From an uncultured Luminiphilus sp. (GTDB taxonomy: Bacteria; Pseudomonadota; Gammaproteobacteria; Pseudomonadales; Halieaceae): 64,000 nt of DNA. A program made the translations under genes and the position numbers. The notes below the pieces were generated by a model, which saw only the letters and a program-made list of their open reading frames with translations, was not told the origin of the DNA and made no database searches. Below, in pieces: positions 21,726 through 27,304 of this stretch. Within the stretch, counting starts at the first letter, position 1; the number at the start of each line of letters is the position of its first letter. The DNA lies in contig CALSVI010000009.1 of NCBI GenBank assembly GCA_943840615.1, forward strand, positions 186,001 through 250,000, written 5' to 3'.

Positions 21726-22826
21726 ATGAAGCTATTCAAACGCCGCGCCAAGCCCGACAGTCAACCTGAAGGTGTTCAAGGCATAGATTCCGCTGAAGCC
21801 GCCGACAGTGCGCAGAGAACGGTGGTTGAGGAGTGCGACGTCGCGGCGGAGGGTGCGGATGAGGGCCGGCCGGCCCCCTTGCAGCCAGCAGCACCGCCAG
21901 AGACTTCAGCGACGCTCTTCGGGCGTCTGCGAAGTGGGCTCAGCCGCAGCCGGGGGCAGTTTACAGAGGGGTTGGCCAGCCTCGTCTTAGGCAAAAAGCA
22001 GCTGGACCCCGAGTTGTTGGAGGCGCTCGAGGAGCAGTTGATCATGGCTGACCTCGGGCTGGAGACTACCGAGCGGGTGCTTGAATCGCTGCGCCAACGC
22101 CTTGATCGCAAGGCGTTATCAGCCGAGGAGTCCGTGCTGTCGTCGCTGAAGGAGACACTGATTGAGCTTCTGGAAGATCAGGAGCGCGCGCTCAGCCTCG
22201 AGCAGCATAAGCCTTTCGTGATACTGGTTGTGGGTGTAAACGGTGCCGGTAAAACCACCACCATTGGCAAGTTGGCACATCGGTTCAAGCAGGAAGGCCG
22301 CAGCGTGATGTTGGCAGCGGGCGATACTTTCCGCGCGGCTGCCGTGGAGCAACTGCAGGCGTGGGGCGATCGTCATGATGTGCCTGTGATTGCGCAGCAC
22401 TCGGGCGCGGATAGCGCATCGGTGCTGTTTGATGCACTGGAAGCGGCGAGGGCGAGGGGTGTAGATGTCTTGATCGCCGATACCGCAGGGCGGCTGCAGA
22501 ATAAGTCTCATCTCATGGATGAACTCAGCAAGGTGGTTCGTGTCATGCGTAAACAAGACGACACAGTACCCCATGAAACGTTATTGGTATTGGATGCCGG
22601 AACGGGTCAGAACGCGGTATCGCAGGCCGTGGAGTTTGATCAGGCGGTCGGCGTGTCAGGGGTCGCGGTAACCAAGCTCGATGGCACCGCCAGGGGCGGT
22701 GTGTTGTTTGCCATTGCCCACAAACTGAAGCGGCCGATTCGTTTTATCGGTGTGGGTGAGCAATCCGAAGACCTTCGAGATTTTTCCGCACGGGACTTTG
22801 TGAATGCACTGCTGGACGAGCGTTAA
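21726..22826 (+). CDS. ftsY: Signal recognition particle receptor FtsY
   Basis: Membrane-associated GTPase that receives SRP–ribosome complexes for cotranslational insertion. It has 366 residues. An acidic, alanine-rich A domain (about 15-60) precedes the NG domain. G1 is GVNGAGKTTT (170-179), followed by AAGDTFRAAAVEQLQ, DTAGRLQNK and TKLDGTARGG, with GVGEQSEDLRDF at the C-terminus. The A domain is much shorter than in E. coli. It heads the ftsY–ftsE–ftsX operon, 12 bp before ftsE. Confidence 0.97.
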   Translation: MKLFKRRAKPDSQPEGVQGIDSAEAADSAQRTVVEECDVAAEGADEGRPAPLQPAAPPETSATLFGRLRSGLSRSRGQFTEGLASLVLGKKQLDPELLEALEEQLIMADLGLETTERVLESLRQRLDRKALSAEESVLSSLKETLIELLEDQERALSLEQHKPFVILVVGVNGAGKTTTIGKLAHRFKQEGRSVMLAAGDTFRAAAVEQLQAWGDRHDVPVIAQHSGADSASVLFDALEAARARGVDVLIADTAGRLQNKSHLMDELSKVVRVMRKQDDTVPHETLLVLDAGTGQNAVSQAVEFDQAVGVSGVAVTKLDGTARGGVLFAIAHKLKRPIRFIGVGEQSEDLRDFSARDFVNALLDER

Positions 22827-22838
22827 AGGGTCTCATCA

Positions 22839-23501
22839 GTGATTGAATTTGAGCGGGTCAGCCGCCGATTCGGGGACCTCGACGCACTGCGCCACCTTAA
22901 TTTGACGATTGACCAGGGTGAGATGGCTTTTATTACCGGTCACTCTGGCGCAGGCAAGAGCACTTTGTTGCGACTCTTGCTATTGCTCGATCGGCCGAGC
23001 AGCGGTGAGATTCGCGTCAAGGGTGAGCTGACGAGAGAAATTCGTTCGCACAGGGTGCCGCAGTATCGGCGTCGCTTTGGTGTGGTTTTTCAGGATCACC
23101 GATTACTTTTCGATCGCAGTGTCCATGACAATGTCGCGTTGCCGCTGGTGATCGCAGGATTCTCGCCAAGAGACAGCGCTCGACGGGTTCGAGCGGCGCT
23201 CGATAAAGTGGGGCTGTTGGCTCAAGAGTACGCGAACCCCGCCACTTTATCGGGGGGCGAGCAGCAGCGTGTCGGTATTGCGAGAGCGGTCGTCGCAAGA
23301 CCCGAGTTTCTGATTGCCGACGAGCCTACGGGCAATCTTGATCCTCAGCTGTCTTCAGAAATTATGGCTTTGTTTGAAGCTTTCAATCAGGTGGGCGTCA
23401 CGGTGCTCGTGGCAACCCATGACCTGTCGCTGATATCGCAACTTCGGCACCGGATTATTACGCTCAGCTCGGGGCGTCTCGCGGGCGCTGAGTCGCCATG
23501 A
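22839..23501 (+). CDS. ftsE: Cell division ATP-binding protein FtsE
   Basis: ATPase of the FtsEX complex, which activates periplasmic amidases at the septum. It has 220 residues and starts with GTG at 22839. Walker A GHSGAGKST is at about 33-41, the Q-loop is VVFQDHRLL, the ABC signature LSGGEQQRVGIARAV, and Walker B FLIADEPTGNLD. It overlaps ftsX by four bases (ATGA), so translation is coupled. Confidence 0.96.
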   Translation: MIEFERVSRRFGDLDALRHLNLTIDQGEMAFITGHSGAGKSTLLRLLLLLDRPSSGEIRVKGELTREIRSHRVPQYRRRFGVVFQDHRLLFDRSVHDNVALPLVIAGFSPRDSARRVRAALDKVGLLAQEYANPATLSGGEQQRVGIARAVVARPEFLIADEPTGNLDPQLSSEIMALFEAFNQVGVTVLVATHDLSLISQLRHRIITLSSGRLAGAESP

Positions 23502-24451
23502 ATTCACCAACCGGCCAATCGGCAGAGCGGTGGACCCGAGCTGCTGTGTGGCGAGCACAACACCGGATCGCTGCTAACGACAGTGGGCGAAAACTGTTGC
23601 AACGGCCCGTCGCGACAGGGCTGGTTTGGCTAGTGGTCGCAATCTCACTGGCACTTCCCAGCGCGCTATTGCTGACCGTCGAAAACCTTCGGCCGATCGT
23701 TCCGGATCTGGCGCGTTCAGCTCAGTTGTCCGTCATGCTGGACAGAGAAGTGGATCGAGCGAGTGCGGAGGCGGTGCAGGGTCAGATTGAGAATTGGTCG
23801 GGGGTGGATGCGGTTCGGTGGGTGAGTCGCGAACAAGCGCTCTCGGAGTTTGGTGAGCAGACCGGCTTGGCGACACTGTTGGCTTCGCTCGATCGAAACC
23901 CCCTGCCCCATACGTTGCGTGTGCTGCCTAAGTTGCCGGTCAGCGACTCAGCGCTGAATCGCTTGATCGGAGAGCTTGAGTCATTCCCTAACGTCAATCG
24001 AGTGGTAGCAGACACCCGCTGGATGGCACGCCTTGATGAGACGCTGGTGGCGGGTGAACGCTGGGTACTCGCGTTGGGCGGCGCTATGGTATTGGGCGCG
24101 ATTCTGGCGCTGGCCAATACGCTCCATTTGGCCATCGATGCCCGCAGGGAGGAAATCCTTGTGGTGCGTGTGATCGGCGGTTCCCCTGCCTTCGTGCGCC
24201 GACCCTTTTTGTATACCGGGCTGTATTTTGGTGCAGGCGGTGGGGTGTTAGCAGCGCTCATGCTGTGGGCTTTGAGCCTCTGGCTCACAGGGCCGGTTAA
24301 TGCCCTGTTCCTATTGTATGACAGTCCCGGGCAGCTTCAGGGTCCGGGCTTCGAGTATCCATTGGCGCTCACCGTATTGGGTGCCATGATCGGGTGGTTG
24401 GCCTCCTGGGCGGCGACTGAGCGTTACTTCAGGCGACTCGAAGCTCGCTAA
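23498..24451 (+). CDS. ftsX: Cell division protein FtsX
   Basis: Membrane subunit of FtsEX. It has 317 residues with a cytoplasmic N-tail, one transmembrane helix at about 43-65 (GLVWLVVAISLALPSALLLT), a periplasmic loop of about 100 residues, and three C-terminal helices with the FtsX/MacB-type segment ANTLHLAIDARREEI before the third. The large loop matches the amidase-activator contact domain of the family. The gene ends 28 bp before the CIRCE operator of rpoH. Confidence 0.95.
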   Translation: MNSPTGQSAERWTRAAVWRAQHRIAANDSGRKLLQRPVATGLVWLVVAISLALPSALLLTVENLRPIVPDLARSAQLSVMLDREVDRASAEAVQGQIENWSGVDAVRWVSREQALSEFGEQTGLATLLASLDRNPLPHTLRVLPKLPVSDSALNRLIGELESFPNVNRVVADTRWMARLDETLVAGERWVLALGGAMVLGAILALANTLHLAIDARREEILVVRVIGGSPAFVRRPFLYTGLYFGAGGGVLAALMLWALSLWLTGPVNALFLLYDSPGQLQGPGFEYPLALTVLGAMIGWLASWAATERYFRRLEAR

Positions 24452-24479
24452 GCCACTGAAAATCGGTATTTTTCAAGGT

Positions 24480-24506
24480 TTAGCACTCTAGGGGGGAGAG
24501 TGCTAA
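24480..24506. promoter_or_regulatory. Perfect CIRCE operator (HrcA-binding inverted repeat) upstream of rpoH
   Basis: The sequence TTAGCACTC-N9-GAGTGCTAA matches the CIRCE consensus at all 18 arm positions, with the canonical nine-base spacer (24489-24497). It ends 35 bp before the rpoH ATG. Its right arm overlaps the probable rpoH -10 box, a position where bound repressor would block polymerase. CIRCE is the operator of the heat-shock repressor HrcA; hrcA itself is not in the window. Confidence 0.95.
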
Positions 24507-24509
24507 AAT
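24501..24509 (+). promoter_or_regulatory. Candidate extended -10 promoter of rpoH
   Basis: TGCTAAAAT has the TGn extended -10 form and lies 33 bp before the rpoH ATG, overlapping the right arm of the CIRCE repeat. No convincing -35 hexamer is seen at the expected distance, which fits an extended -10 promoter but leaves the call moderate. Confidence 0.5.
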
Positions 24510-24541
24510 ATCGGGCTATCAGCCTTTTGGAGGCGATGAAC

Positions 24542-25417
24542 ATGACAGAGACACCGCGCGCACTCGCCTTACCCAATAGCGCAGTGCTAAATATGGCGCC
24601 TGGCGCCAATTTGCCCGCCTATATTCAGGCCGTTAGTAGTATTGCCCTGTTGTCCGCCGAGCGCGAGAGTGAGCTTGCAGAGCGCTTGTTCTATGAGGAG
24701 TGCGTCGATTCGGCTCGAGAGCTGGTGCTGGCACACCTTCGATTTGTTGTGCACATTGCTCGCAGCTACTCGGGTTATGGATTGGCAGAGGCTGACTTGA
24801 TTCAAGAAGGCAACGTCGGCTTGATGAAAGCGGTAAAACGGTTCGATCCCAACAAGGGTGTGCGACTGGTGTCGTTTGCTGTGCACTGGATTAAGGCGGA
24901 GATGCATGAATACATTCTTCGCAACTGGCGGATCGTCAAAGTCGCCACGACCAAGGCCCAGCGAAAGTTGTTTTTTAATCTGCGGAGTCAGAAAAAAGCG
25001 CTTGGCTGGTTGTCTGCAGAAGAAACCCGAGCCATTGCGGCTGATTTGGGTGTTGATGAGGCTGAGGTCACCAGAATGGAGGGACGTTTGGCCAGCCGCG
25101 ATGTCGCCTTCGACGCGCCGGCCGACAGTGATGACGAAGACGGCTGGCAGGCACCTCAGTACTTTTTGACCGACGGGCAGGTGGATCCCAGCCAGCTCGC
25201 TGAGGCCGAAGACTTTGCACAGGACAGCGCAGCCAAACTGCGGCTAGCACTGACGGACCTCGATGATCGCAGCCGAGACATTCTCGAGCGTCGTTGGCTG
25301 GTTGACGATAAATCCACGCTCCATGAGTTAGCGGCCGAGTACCAGGTATCGGCGGAGCGTATCCGACAGTTAGAAGCCAATGCGCTGAAAAAGTTACGCA
25401 CCGCCATGGTGGCGTAA
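24542..25417 (+). CDS. rpoH: RNA polymerase heat-shock sigma factor sigma-32
   Basis: Alternative sigma factor for chaperone and protease genes. It has 291 residues. The ATG at 24542 follows GGAGG at eight bases; another ATG two codons upstream is too close to the SD. Region 2 includes LAHLRFVVHIARSYSGYGLA, LIQEGNVGLMKAVKRFDP and FAVHWIKAEMHEYILRNWRI. The diagnostic RpoH box QRKLFFNLR is at 140-148, and region 4.2 has HELAAEYQVSAERIRQLEAN. It stands alone behind ftsX with its own operator-promoter, so it is likely HrcA-controlled at transcription in addition to any RNA-structure control. Confidence 0.97.
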   Translation: MTETPRALALPNSAVLNMAPGANLPAYIQAVSSIALLSAERESELAERLFYEECVDSARELVLAHLRFVVHIARSYSGYGLAEADLIQEGNVGLMKAVKRFDPNKGVRLVSFAVHWIKAEMHEYILRNWRIVKVATTKAQRKLFFNLRSQKKALGWLSAEETRAIAADLGVDEAEVTRMEGRLASRDVAFDAPADSDDEDGWQAPQYFLTDGQVDPSQLAEAEDFAQDSAAKLRLALTDLDDRSRDILERRWLVDDKSTLHELAAEYQVSAERIRQLEANALKKLRTAMVA

Positions 25418-25457
25418 GCGTCGCTTAAGGCGCTACCTGCTCTCTTAGACCTTTCCT

Positions 25458-26153
25458 GTGGGATCCTCCGAGCGTCCGCTCACACATCGAATACGAAGCT
25501 TCGTGATGCGTGCCGGGCGAATGACGCCGGCACAAACGCGTGGCTGGCAGGAGGGTTTTCCGCGGTTCGGCCTTAACCTGCAGAGCGGCCCACTGGATTG
25601 GGATGCGACTTTTGGTTTCGCCGGGCGCCGCATCGTCGAAGTGGGCTTTGGGATGGGCGACAGCCTTTTGCAGATGGCCGATGCAGACCCTGCTGCGCAG
25701 TTTGTGGGCATTGAAGTCCATCGTCCCGGTGTTGGACGACTGTTGTCCCAGCTGCTGGGGGCCGGCATCGACAATCTCCGTATTTATGCCGAGGACGCCG
25801 TCGAGGTGATGGAACATTGTCTCGGTCCTGACTCCCTCGATGCGATCCATATCTTTTTTCCCGATCCCTGGCACAAAAAGCGGCATCACAAGCGCCGCTT
25901 GATTCAGCCAGCACTGGCCCGGCAGTTGGCGGCACTGCTGAAAGCGGATGGATATTTGCATCTTGCCACCGACTGGGCGCCTTACGCTGAGCACATGTTC
26001 GAGGTGCTCGACGCTGAGCCGCTTTTGATCAGCGAAGGAAATGGCCCCGGTACGGGAGTGCCGCGCCCGGATTACCGACCACTCACGAAATTTGAAGCCC
26101 GAGGCGAGAGGCTGGGACACGTGGTACAGGATTTAATTTACCGCCGAGCTTAG
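25458..26153 (+). CDS. trmB: tRNA (guanine46-N7)-methyltransferase TrmB
   Basis: Makes m7G46 in tRNA variable loops. It has 231 residues. RIRSFVMRAGRMTPAQ at the N-terminus, SAM-binding IVEVGFGMGDSLLQMA (about 59-74), IHIFFPDPWHKKRHHKRRL (about 131-149) and PDYRPLTKFEARGERLGH are diagnostic. The start GTG at 25458 lacks a good SD, so the exact start is uncertain, but family proteins include the segment from about residue 10. It is convergent with hemW, overlapping it by four bases. Confidence 0.95.
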   Translation: MGSSERPLTHRIRSFVMRAGRMTPAQTRGWQEGFPRFGLNLQSGPLDWDATFGFAGRRIVEVGFGMGDSLLQMADADPAAQFVGIEVHRPGVGRLLSQLLGAGIDNLRIYAEDAVEVMEHCLGPDSLDAIHIFFPDPWHKKRHHKRRLIQPALARQLAALLKADGYLHLATDWAPYAEHMFEVLDAEPLLISEGNGPGTGVPRPDYRPLTKFEARGERLGHVVQDLIYRRA

Positions 26154-27304
26154 AGAAAAGTCGCGATCACGCTGTCTAAAAAACGGTAGCCTAACGGTGT
26201 GGTCCGGAACTGCCCGTTGCGGGGGTCCTCAATCCATCCGCGCGAGAGCGCGGTGGAAGCCGCTGCGGCCAGTTGCTCGACCGGCAGGCCTGTATGCTCG
26301 GCGAAGCGCTGTATTGGCACGCCTGATTTCAAACGCAGTGCATTCATCGCAAATTCCACCGTCTTTTCTTCTGGCGCCAGCGCCACATGCTGTGGCGGCG
26401 GCATGGCGGGCAAGTTGGCTTCCCTCAGATAATCCAATGGCGCCCGCGTTCGTTGGCTGCGAACAATGGCGCCATCCTGCAGCGAGAGTTTACCGTGAGC
26501 GCCGGCGCCTACACCGAGGTAGTCACCGAACTCCCAGTAGTTCAGATTATGTCGGCTTTCCTCACCCCGCCGGCTGAAAGCAGACACTTCATACTGCGAT
26601 AGATCAGCCTCATTGAGGCACGTTTCTCCCTGACGCTGAACTGCCTCGAGCGTGCTCTCGTCGGGGAGCATGGGTGGCATGGACCAGAAGTGGGTATTGC
26701 GCTCGATAGTAAGCTGGTACCAGGAAATATGTCCGGCACTGCGGTCAATCGCTTCAGTGAGGTCGGCTTCTGCGAGCGCTGCATTTTGTCCCGGGAGCCC
26801 GTGCATTAAGTCGATATTCCAGCGACTGAAGCCGACAGTGGCGACCAGATCCAAGGCACGACGCGCCTCGTCACCGGAGTGAATCCGGCCCAGTGCCTTC
26901 AGCGCGCCATCATCGAAGCTCTGTACGCCGATGCTGAGCCGATTGACCCCCGCCAGTCGATAGTCGCGGAAGCGCGAGCTCTCGGCACTCCCCGGATTAC
27001 TCTCCAAGGTGATCTCGGCATCGCTTGGCAGGAATGCTCGCTTAGCGATCCCCTCGAGCAGGTCGGCTATCCACCGGCTTTCGAACAGGCTTGGCGTGCC
27101 GCCCCCAATGAAAATGGAGTCAACCGCTCGGCCAGCCAGCCCGTCCCGCTGGCTGTCGAGATCGCTCAGCAGAGCCTCGATATAGGGTCGTTGCAAGCTG
27201 GGCGAGAAGCCTTCATGACTATTGAAGTCGCAGTAGGGGCATTTGCGGGTACACCAAGGCAGGTGAACGTAAAGCGATAAGGGGACGTTCCCGGGGTCGA
27301 TCAT
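26150..27304 (-). CDS. hemW: Heme chaperone HemW (radical SAM)
   Basis: Radical-SAM protein related to oxygen-independent coproporphyrinogen oxidase; family members characterised as HemW insert heme into respiratory enzymes instead. It has 384 residues. The iron-sulfur cluster motif is WCTRKCPYCDFNSH (16-29), with the short CPYCDFNSH form typical of HemW rather than HemN. FIGGGTPSLF, NRLSIGVQSFDD and DLMHGLPGQ follow, and GDYLGVGAGAHGKLS is the C-terminal family signature. Its start overlaps the rdgB stop by four bases. It is the last gene of the yggS operon. Confidence 0.94.
   Translation of the reverse strand: MIDPGNVPLSLYVHLPWCTRKCPYCDFNSHEGFSPSLQRPYIEALLSDLDSQRDGLAGRAVDSIFIGGGTPSLFESRWIADLLEGIAKRAFLPSDAEITLESNPGSAESSRFRDYRLAGVNRLSIGVQSFDDGALKALGRIHSGDEARRALDLVATVGFSRWNIDLMHGLPGQNAALAEADLTEAIDRSAGHISWYQLTIERNTHFWSMPPMLPDESTLEAVQRQGETCLNEADLSQYEVSAFSRRGEESRHNLNYWEFGDYLGVGAGAHGKLSLQDGAIVRSQRTRAPLDYLREANLPAMPPPQHVALAPEEKTVEFAMNALRLKSGVPIQRFAEHTGLPVEQLAAAASTALSRGWIEDPRNGQFRTTPLGYRFLDSVIATFL

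Follow-up and report, generated by a model that had tools for sequence, protein, structure and literature searches.

A perfect CIRCE operator stands directly in front of rpoH, the gene encoding sigma-32, in the genome of an uncultured Luminiphilus, and judged from the sequence and its relatives it is very likely a working operator through which HrcA would control rpoH transcription. The arrangement is no oddity, since most of the hrcA-bearing gammaproteobacterial genomes that were sampled have CIRCE at rpoH. Heat-shock control in this class is usually taught from Escherichia coli, with sigma-32 on top. If HrcA control of rpoH is general among the hrcA-bearing members, both classical systems would form one hierarchy with the repressor topmost, and GroEL load would be a transcriptional input to sigma-32.

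The window, that is, the whole 64 kb stretch of DNA which was analysed, was scanned with the CIRCE consensus at up to three mismatches and gave one match, as compared with a mean of 0.02 in shuffled sequences. This match, at 24480-24506, has the form TTAGCACTC-N9-GAGTGCTAA, in full TTAGCACTC-TAGGGGGGA-GAGTGCTAA, and has no mismatches; the initial annotation, which had claimed a perfect CIRCE before rpoH, is thereby confirmed. The operator lies within the 90 nt that separate ftsX from rpoH, 35 nt 5' of the likely rpoH start. The features of the locus are as follows.

21726-24451, + strand: ftsY, ftsE and ftsX block 5' of rpoH (TIGR00064, TIGR02673 and TIGR00439, all above cut-offs)
21726-22826, + strand: ftsY
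22839-23501, + strand: ftsE
23498-24451, + strand: ftsX
24465-24471, + strand: GGTATTT where relatives have the sigmaE -35, probably the decayed remains of that box (comparison with relatives)
24480-24488 and 24498-24506, no strand assigned: arms of the CIRCE operator, with spacer 24489-24497 (consensus scan and conservation)
24480-24509, + strand: likely sigma70-type promoter formed by the operator (consensus scan and conserved T)
24480-24485, 24501-24502 and 24504-24509, + strand: its parts, namely -35 TTAGCA, TG and -10 TAAAAT, respectively
24529-24533, + strand: GGAGG, likely ribosome-binding site of rpoH (read in the sequence)
24542-25417, + strand: rpoH (sigma-32; TIGR02392), with the start taken from the alignment of relatives and ATG 24536 as the alternative
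25458-26153, + strand: trmB, downstream of rpoH

The identity of RpoH is given by the NCBIfam equivalog model TIGR02392, matched at 383.8 bits and thus above its curated cut-off of 323.1. The ATG at 24542 is a likelier start than the in-frame ATG at 24536, because only the former is shared by the relatives. An open reading frame starting with GTG at 24500 was rejected as the rpoH start; it begins inside CIRCE, and the gene probably starts at ATG 24542 instead. Within 23400-24700, TTAGCA-N18-TAAAAT is the sole sigma70-like promoter, with a TG one base 5' of the -10, and the scan alone is weak, near chance, as 0.4 such matches are expected in shuffled sequences. When distinct sequences are counted, the T at 24509 is present in 14/14 from the window's clade and 18/18 from the rest of the genus, as against 1/16 groE sites. 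The promoter covers the operator and its T is conserved, so the claim in the initial annotation that CIRCE overlaps the likely -10 box of rpoH was right. The region before rpoH (24300-24540 of the window) holds no sigma32-like promoter with up to three mismatches.

The genome assembly (2.09 Mb in 19 contigs, 82% complete) encodes one HrcA (G000:C18:23430-24092), which covers the whole Pfam model and scores 210.2 bits (cut-off 22.2). A genome-wide scan at up to three mismatches returned two CIRCE sites, both perfect, at groESL and rpoH, and since the genome is 82% complete further sites may be missing. Thus both searches that the initial annotation had proposed, for hrcA and for other CIRCE sites, were productive, the second yielding one additional operator, which ends 93 nt 5' of the groES start. 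The frames 3' of hrcA, which we take to be grpE, dnaK and dnaJ, form a cluster where the best CIRCE match has five mismatches and lies more than 3 kb from hrcA, and at the hrcA loci of relatives no CIRCE with up to four mismatches was found in 8/8. The sigma32-like sequence CTTGAA-N14-CCCCAT occurs before groES and dnaK with no mismatch and before grpE with one; at groES it begins seven bases after CIRCE (L002:1501-1560). Because a perfect sigma32-like promoter follows the operator there, groESL appears to be under the control of both HrcA and sigma-32. The dnaJ frame contains an extra match to the same sequence, on the - strand and with one mismatch, which is probably due to chance. The genome also encodes RpoE (276.9 bits, cut-off 236.15) and RseA (48.1 bits, cut-off 24). 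The predicted wiring is therefore one in which HrcA would act on groESL and rpoH, and sigma-32 on groESL, grpE and dnaK.

According to PMC6032397, it is established for B. subtilis, C. trachomatis and H. pylori that HrcA depends on GroE for its activity; GroE helps HrcA to bind, an effect that is relieved by unfolded proteins. We infer HrcA binding and heat induction at rpoH by reading the operator in this light. At normal temperature, HrcA, activated with the help of GroEL, would cover the promoter and block RNA polymerase, keeping rpoH low. Once GroEL is taken up by unfolded proteins, HrcA would lose its activity, releasing both rpoH and groESL, and newly made sigma-32 would activate groESL, grpE and dnaK. 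Restored GroEL would then re-arm HrcA, while the chaperones would also restrain sigma-32.

A search for hrcA in 184 genomes of Gammaproteobacteria in the GTDB sense, the window's own included, found it in 133 of them. From these, 60 hrcA-bearing genomes were taken by alternating down the list and adding ten more, a choice made before rpoH was inspected, and 19 genomes without hrcA were drawn from 20 listed, of 51 such genomes in all. An rpoH was found in 57 and 18 of them, respectively; the four genomes with no RpoH match (G083, G092, G136 and G073) stand outside the denominators. The searched region comprised up to 400 bases upstream of rpoH and the first 100 bases of the gene, with up to three mismatches to CIRCE allowed. 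A site upstream of rpoH was present in 51/57 hrcA-bearing genomes as against 1/18 without detected hrcA. Per locus the figures are 51/58 and 1/18 (Fisher p 1.4e-10; G087 has two rpoH genes), and these counts do not represent independent events because the genomes are related. The 51 sites of hrcA-bearing genomes are exact in 24 cases and have one, two or three mismatches in 19, 4 and 4 cases, and six hrcA-bearing genomes have no site at rpoH (G068, G081, G119, G161, G188 and G191). The sole genome without hrcA that carries one, G071, belongs to the same genus as the hrcA-bearing G204. The remark in the initial annotation that CIRCE normally sits at groESL or dnaK units, with rpoH controlled otherwise, is therefore wrong for Gammaproteobacteria (51/57). 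Its central reading, a predicted HrcA control of the sigma-32 gene, is supported by the presence of hrcA, the conservation of the site and the way in which the site tracks hrcA; neither an absence of hrcA nor a lack of the repeat in relatives, which the initial annotation had named as refuting it, was encountered.

Among named genomes, at least 118 loci combine an exact CIRCE with an RpoH-like codon motif, and 116 of the 118 listed are rpoH with CIRCE, a count which shows spread and not frequency, because the search pattern itself demands CIRCE and the RpoH-like codon motif. The titles listed include Methylocaldum, Methylomonas, Alcanivorax, Haliea, Halioglobus, Dyella and Rhodanobacter, as well as Rheinheimera, Alishewanella, Thiothrix, Thioalkalivibrio, Woeseiaceae, Granulosicoccus and Kangiella. 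A second CIRCE-like palindrome with one mismatch lies beside the first before rpoH in L242 (Kangiella) and L207 (Catenovulum); L282 (from G065) is possibly similar, the right-arm copy alone being visible in the flank displayed. A scan of viral contigs found no RpoH relatives.

In many lineages, CIRCE at rpoH coincides with part of a sigmaE-like promoter (GGAACTT-N16-TCNAA), taking in the spacer and the -10, and an extended -10, TGCTAANNT, is completed by the right arm of the operator; at groES sites, an extended -10 or a sigmaE-like promoter is rarely seen. Sixteen bases past GGAACTT, the TC that ends the left arm and the bases that open the spacer make up TCNAA, which fits the sigmaE -10 consensus. 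The conserved T completes TGC-TAANNT, the extended -10 of the right arm, with the TTAGCA of the left arm 18 bases before it in the window. The pattern was counted in 110 named-genome loci, that is, the 116 listed minus three that are non-gammaproteobacterial by title (L136, L138 and L165) and three of the window's clade (L158, L163 and L192). GAAC occurs at -18 to -10 before CIRCE in 84/110 of these listed loci, whereas stretches of the same length farther 5' have it in 4, 4 and 3 of the 110, and the gap from GAACNN to CIRCE is most often nine bases (58/110). The spacer has A at position 2 in 75/110 and at position 3 in 88/110, and the third base 3' of CIRCE is T in 105/110. In the class survey set, GGAACTT is the commonest 7-mer at the place of the sigmaE -35 (17/59); RpoE of E. 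coli has the same heptamer as its -35 (PMC8103513).

The control was provided by groES, for which the best 30 loci were taken from 42 of the 57 hrcA-bearing genomes, 29 of the 30 having CIRCE. Among the 51 rpoH sites of the survey, GAAC is in place in 36, the T completing TGCTAANNT in 46 and A at spacer position 3 in 36, whereas the 29 groES sites from the best 30 loci show these features in 1, 5 and 6 cases. Conversely, a promoter of the form TTGA[CAT]-N17-19-TA stands just before CIRCE in 27 of those 29 groES sites and in 1/51 rpoH sites, the latter having been searched with a shorter flank of 30 bases. Thus, the composite promoter pattern belongs to rpoH and not to CIRCE generally. Many other hrcA-bearing Gammaproteobacteria have the operator on top of a sigmaE-like promoter, so that envelope stress and cytoplasmic folding stress would meet at a single promoter, and the composite operator-promoter predicts that sigmaE activation and release from HrcA act jointly.

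These promoter data also bear on the rather unlikely alternative that HrcA binds the site and yet trims only a minor promoter, rpoH being supplied mainly by read-through from ftsYEX or governed, as in E. coli, by translation or protein stability. The ftsY, ftsE and ftsX genes lie directly 5' on the same strand, no terminator-like site was found by a scan of 23400-24700, and read-through into rpoH may occur and could bypass the operator; in addition, chaperones in E. coli exert strong control on sigma-32 once it has been made, according to PMC6032397. Against this, a promoter-type T follows CIRCE in nearly all loci of both sets, listed (105/110) and surveyed (46/51), and the leader gives no sign of control by RNA structure: 22000-26200 has no Rfam match, and the window sequence, folded alone, is no stabler than shuffled sequences (z -0.45), so that a structured rpoH leader is unsupported, a result with which a thermosensor would still be compatible.

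Direct control of rpoH by HrcA is further favored by the conservation of the operator among relatives. In the genus set of 37 genomes, including the window's own, rpoH was found in 32, and in 32/32 of these the CIRCE arms are identical and directly 5' of rpoH, while the spacer and flanks vary; hence the comparison of upstream regions proposed in the initial annotation found the repeat conserved. Within this set, hrcA was found in 34/37 genomes, the other three being 68-88% complete. The nearest named relative among the matches listed is an uncultured Luminiphilus (L192), with 97% RpoH identity. In the order, represented by one genome from each of 21 other families, all 21 with rpoH found, CIRCE with up to two mismatches lies upstream of rpoH in 6/6 hrcA-bearing genomes and in 2/15 without detected hrcA. 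The latter two are G052 (L081, 96% complete), with one mismatch, and G038 (L080, 75% complete), with two; their hrcA may be unassembled or recently lost. A third genome without detected hrcA, G037 (L086), has a CIRCE-like sequence with five mismatches at the usual distance from GGAACTT, which may be a decaying operator.

Relics may therefore exist, as G037 and G052 indicate, and the window palindrome could be another, or the site of a different protein, with HrcA inactive there; this is very improbable, as the arms are invariant across a genus whose flanks drift and which has hrcA in 34/37 genomes, and as loss of hrcA is accompanied by loss of the site in the class sample (1/18 genomes without hrcA retaining it). 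Least probable of all is a functionless chance match, given one match with no mismatches where 0.02 were expected at up to three, and its conservation in 32/32 genomes.

The window differs from many of its relatives in having no sigmaE promoter of the P3 type, as it carries GGTATTT and TCTAG instead of GGAACTT-N16-TCNAA. Its best -35 score, obtained with a matrix trained on loci from the named-genome set, is -4.1 bits, which is below the 95th percentile of shuffled sequences (-1.2), whereas the median for the rest of the genus is 11.7. When identical sequences are merged, GAAC is found in 0/14 distinct sequences of the window's clade, as against 16/18 in the rest of the genus. In a tree of 36 RpoH proteins, 13 window-type loci group together with support 100/99, and GAAC is present in 0/13 of these, in 15/17 other same-genus rows and in 6/6 outgroup rows, a distribution needing two changes in all; the two same-genus exceptions, L050 and L053, have GCAACTT. 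An altered -35 preference of sigmaE in the window's clade was rejected, since GGAACTT lies upstream of rpoE in 10/10 loci read, eight from this clade and two (G028 and G034) from genomes without a found rpoH. The window's clade has thus probably given up sigmaE control of rpoH and retained HrcA, along with CIRCE and TTAGCA-N18-TAAAAT. An AT-rich imperfect palindrome, TGAAAATCGGTATTTTTCA, lies at 24457-24475 directly 5' of CIRCE, is conserved in the clade (L034-L046) and occupies the place of the relatives' sigmaE -35.

The sigmaE-like promoter is also met apart from CIRCE. With at most one mismatch, it lies before CIRCE-less rpoH genes in 8/13 families of the order (shuffled sequences gave 0.2 on average and 2 at most), and the same strict test finds it in 2/18 genomes without hrcA in the class sample and at 21/58 hrcA-bearing loci. 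The statement that lineages without HrcA keep the sigmaE promoter is therefore true of the order and not of the class; the promoter is common at rpoH, not universal, and ancestral status for the class is not claimed. A broader proposal is that hrcA-keeping Gammaproteobacteria share an old composite rpoH element, in which one palindrome would serve as HrcA operator, as housekeeping extended -10 (TGCTAANNT) and as sigmaE spacer and -10 (TCNAA), so that basal supply, the load on cytoplasmic chaperones and envelope stress would be combined at rpoH. Some HrcA-less lineages would then keep the sigmaE part alone, the window's clade the HrcA and housekeeping parts only, and the E. coli rpoH circuit would be a derived, HrcA-less state; no hrcA was found in the E. 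coli control genome. We regard this proposal as evenly balanced, having earlier leaned somewhat towards it, because the sigmaE-like promoter appears in just 2/18 genomes of the class without hrcA. Natural variants are available as controls, namely the window's clade, which has no sigmaE box, and lineages with neither hrcA nor CIRCE.

The literature searched holds no report of CIRCE at rpoH in Gammaproteobacteria, and as the search was incomplete we do not assert that the arrangement is unpublished; of the literature naming both CIRCE and rpoH, as far as the accessible text extends, only PMC545781 reports CIRCE at rpoH. This analysis contributes the findings that CIRCE at rpoH goes with hrcA across the class, that the site has a composite architecture and that the window's clade has lost the sigmaE box. 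In Geobacter sulfurreducens, a perfect CIRCE was predicted 51 nt before rpoH in 2004 (PMC545781, Table 8), and this arrangement now looks class-wide in view of the 51/57 hrcA-bearing genomes against 1/18. The likeness extends to hrcA and a CIRCE at groESL in the same genome; Geobacter sulfurreducens also has CIRCE at hrcA-grpE-dnaK-dnaJ according to PMC545781, whereas the window's genome does not. The three non-gammaproteobacterial loci listed have GAAC at the sigmaE place in 0/3 and T after CIRCE in 0/3. HrcA and CIRCE at groESL offer the same operator and repressor within the window's own genome, with a different layout: in other families the groES CIRCE follows a TTGA[CAT]-N17-19-TA promoter (27/29 sites, best 30 loci) and in the window's genome a sigma32-like promoter comes directly after it, whereas at rpoH the operator itself supplies promoter elements. 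The rpoH P3 of E. coli and P. aeruginosa is an RpoE/AlgU promoter (PMC8103513, PMC13104619), and many relatives resemble it in having GGAACTT and a TCNAA -10. Unlike P3, the promoter of those relatives has its spacer and -10 covered by CIRCE, and the window's clade, despite encoding RpoE and RseA, carries the operator without a sigmaE box.
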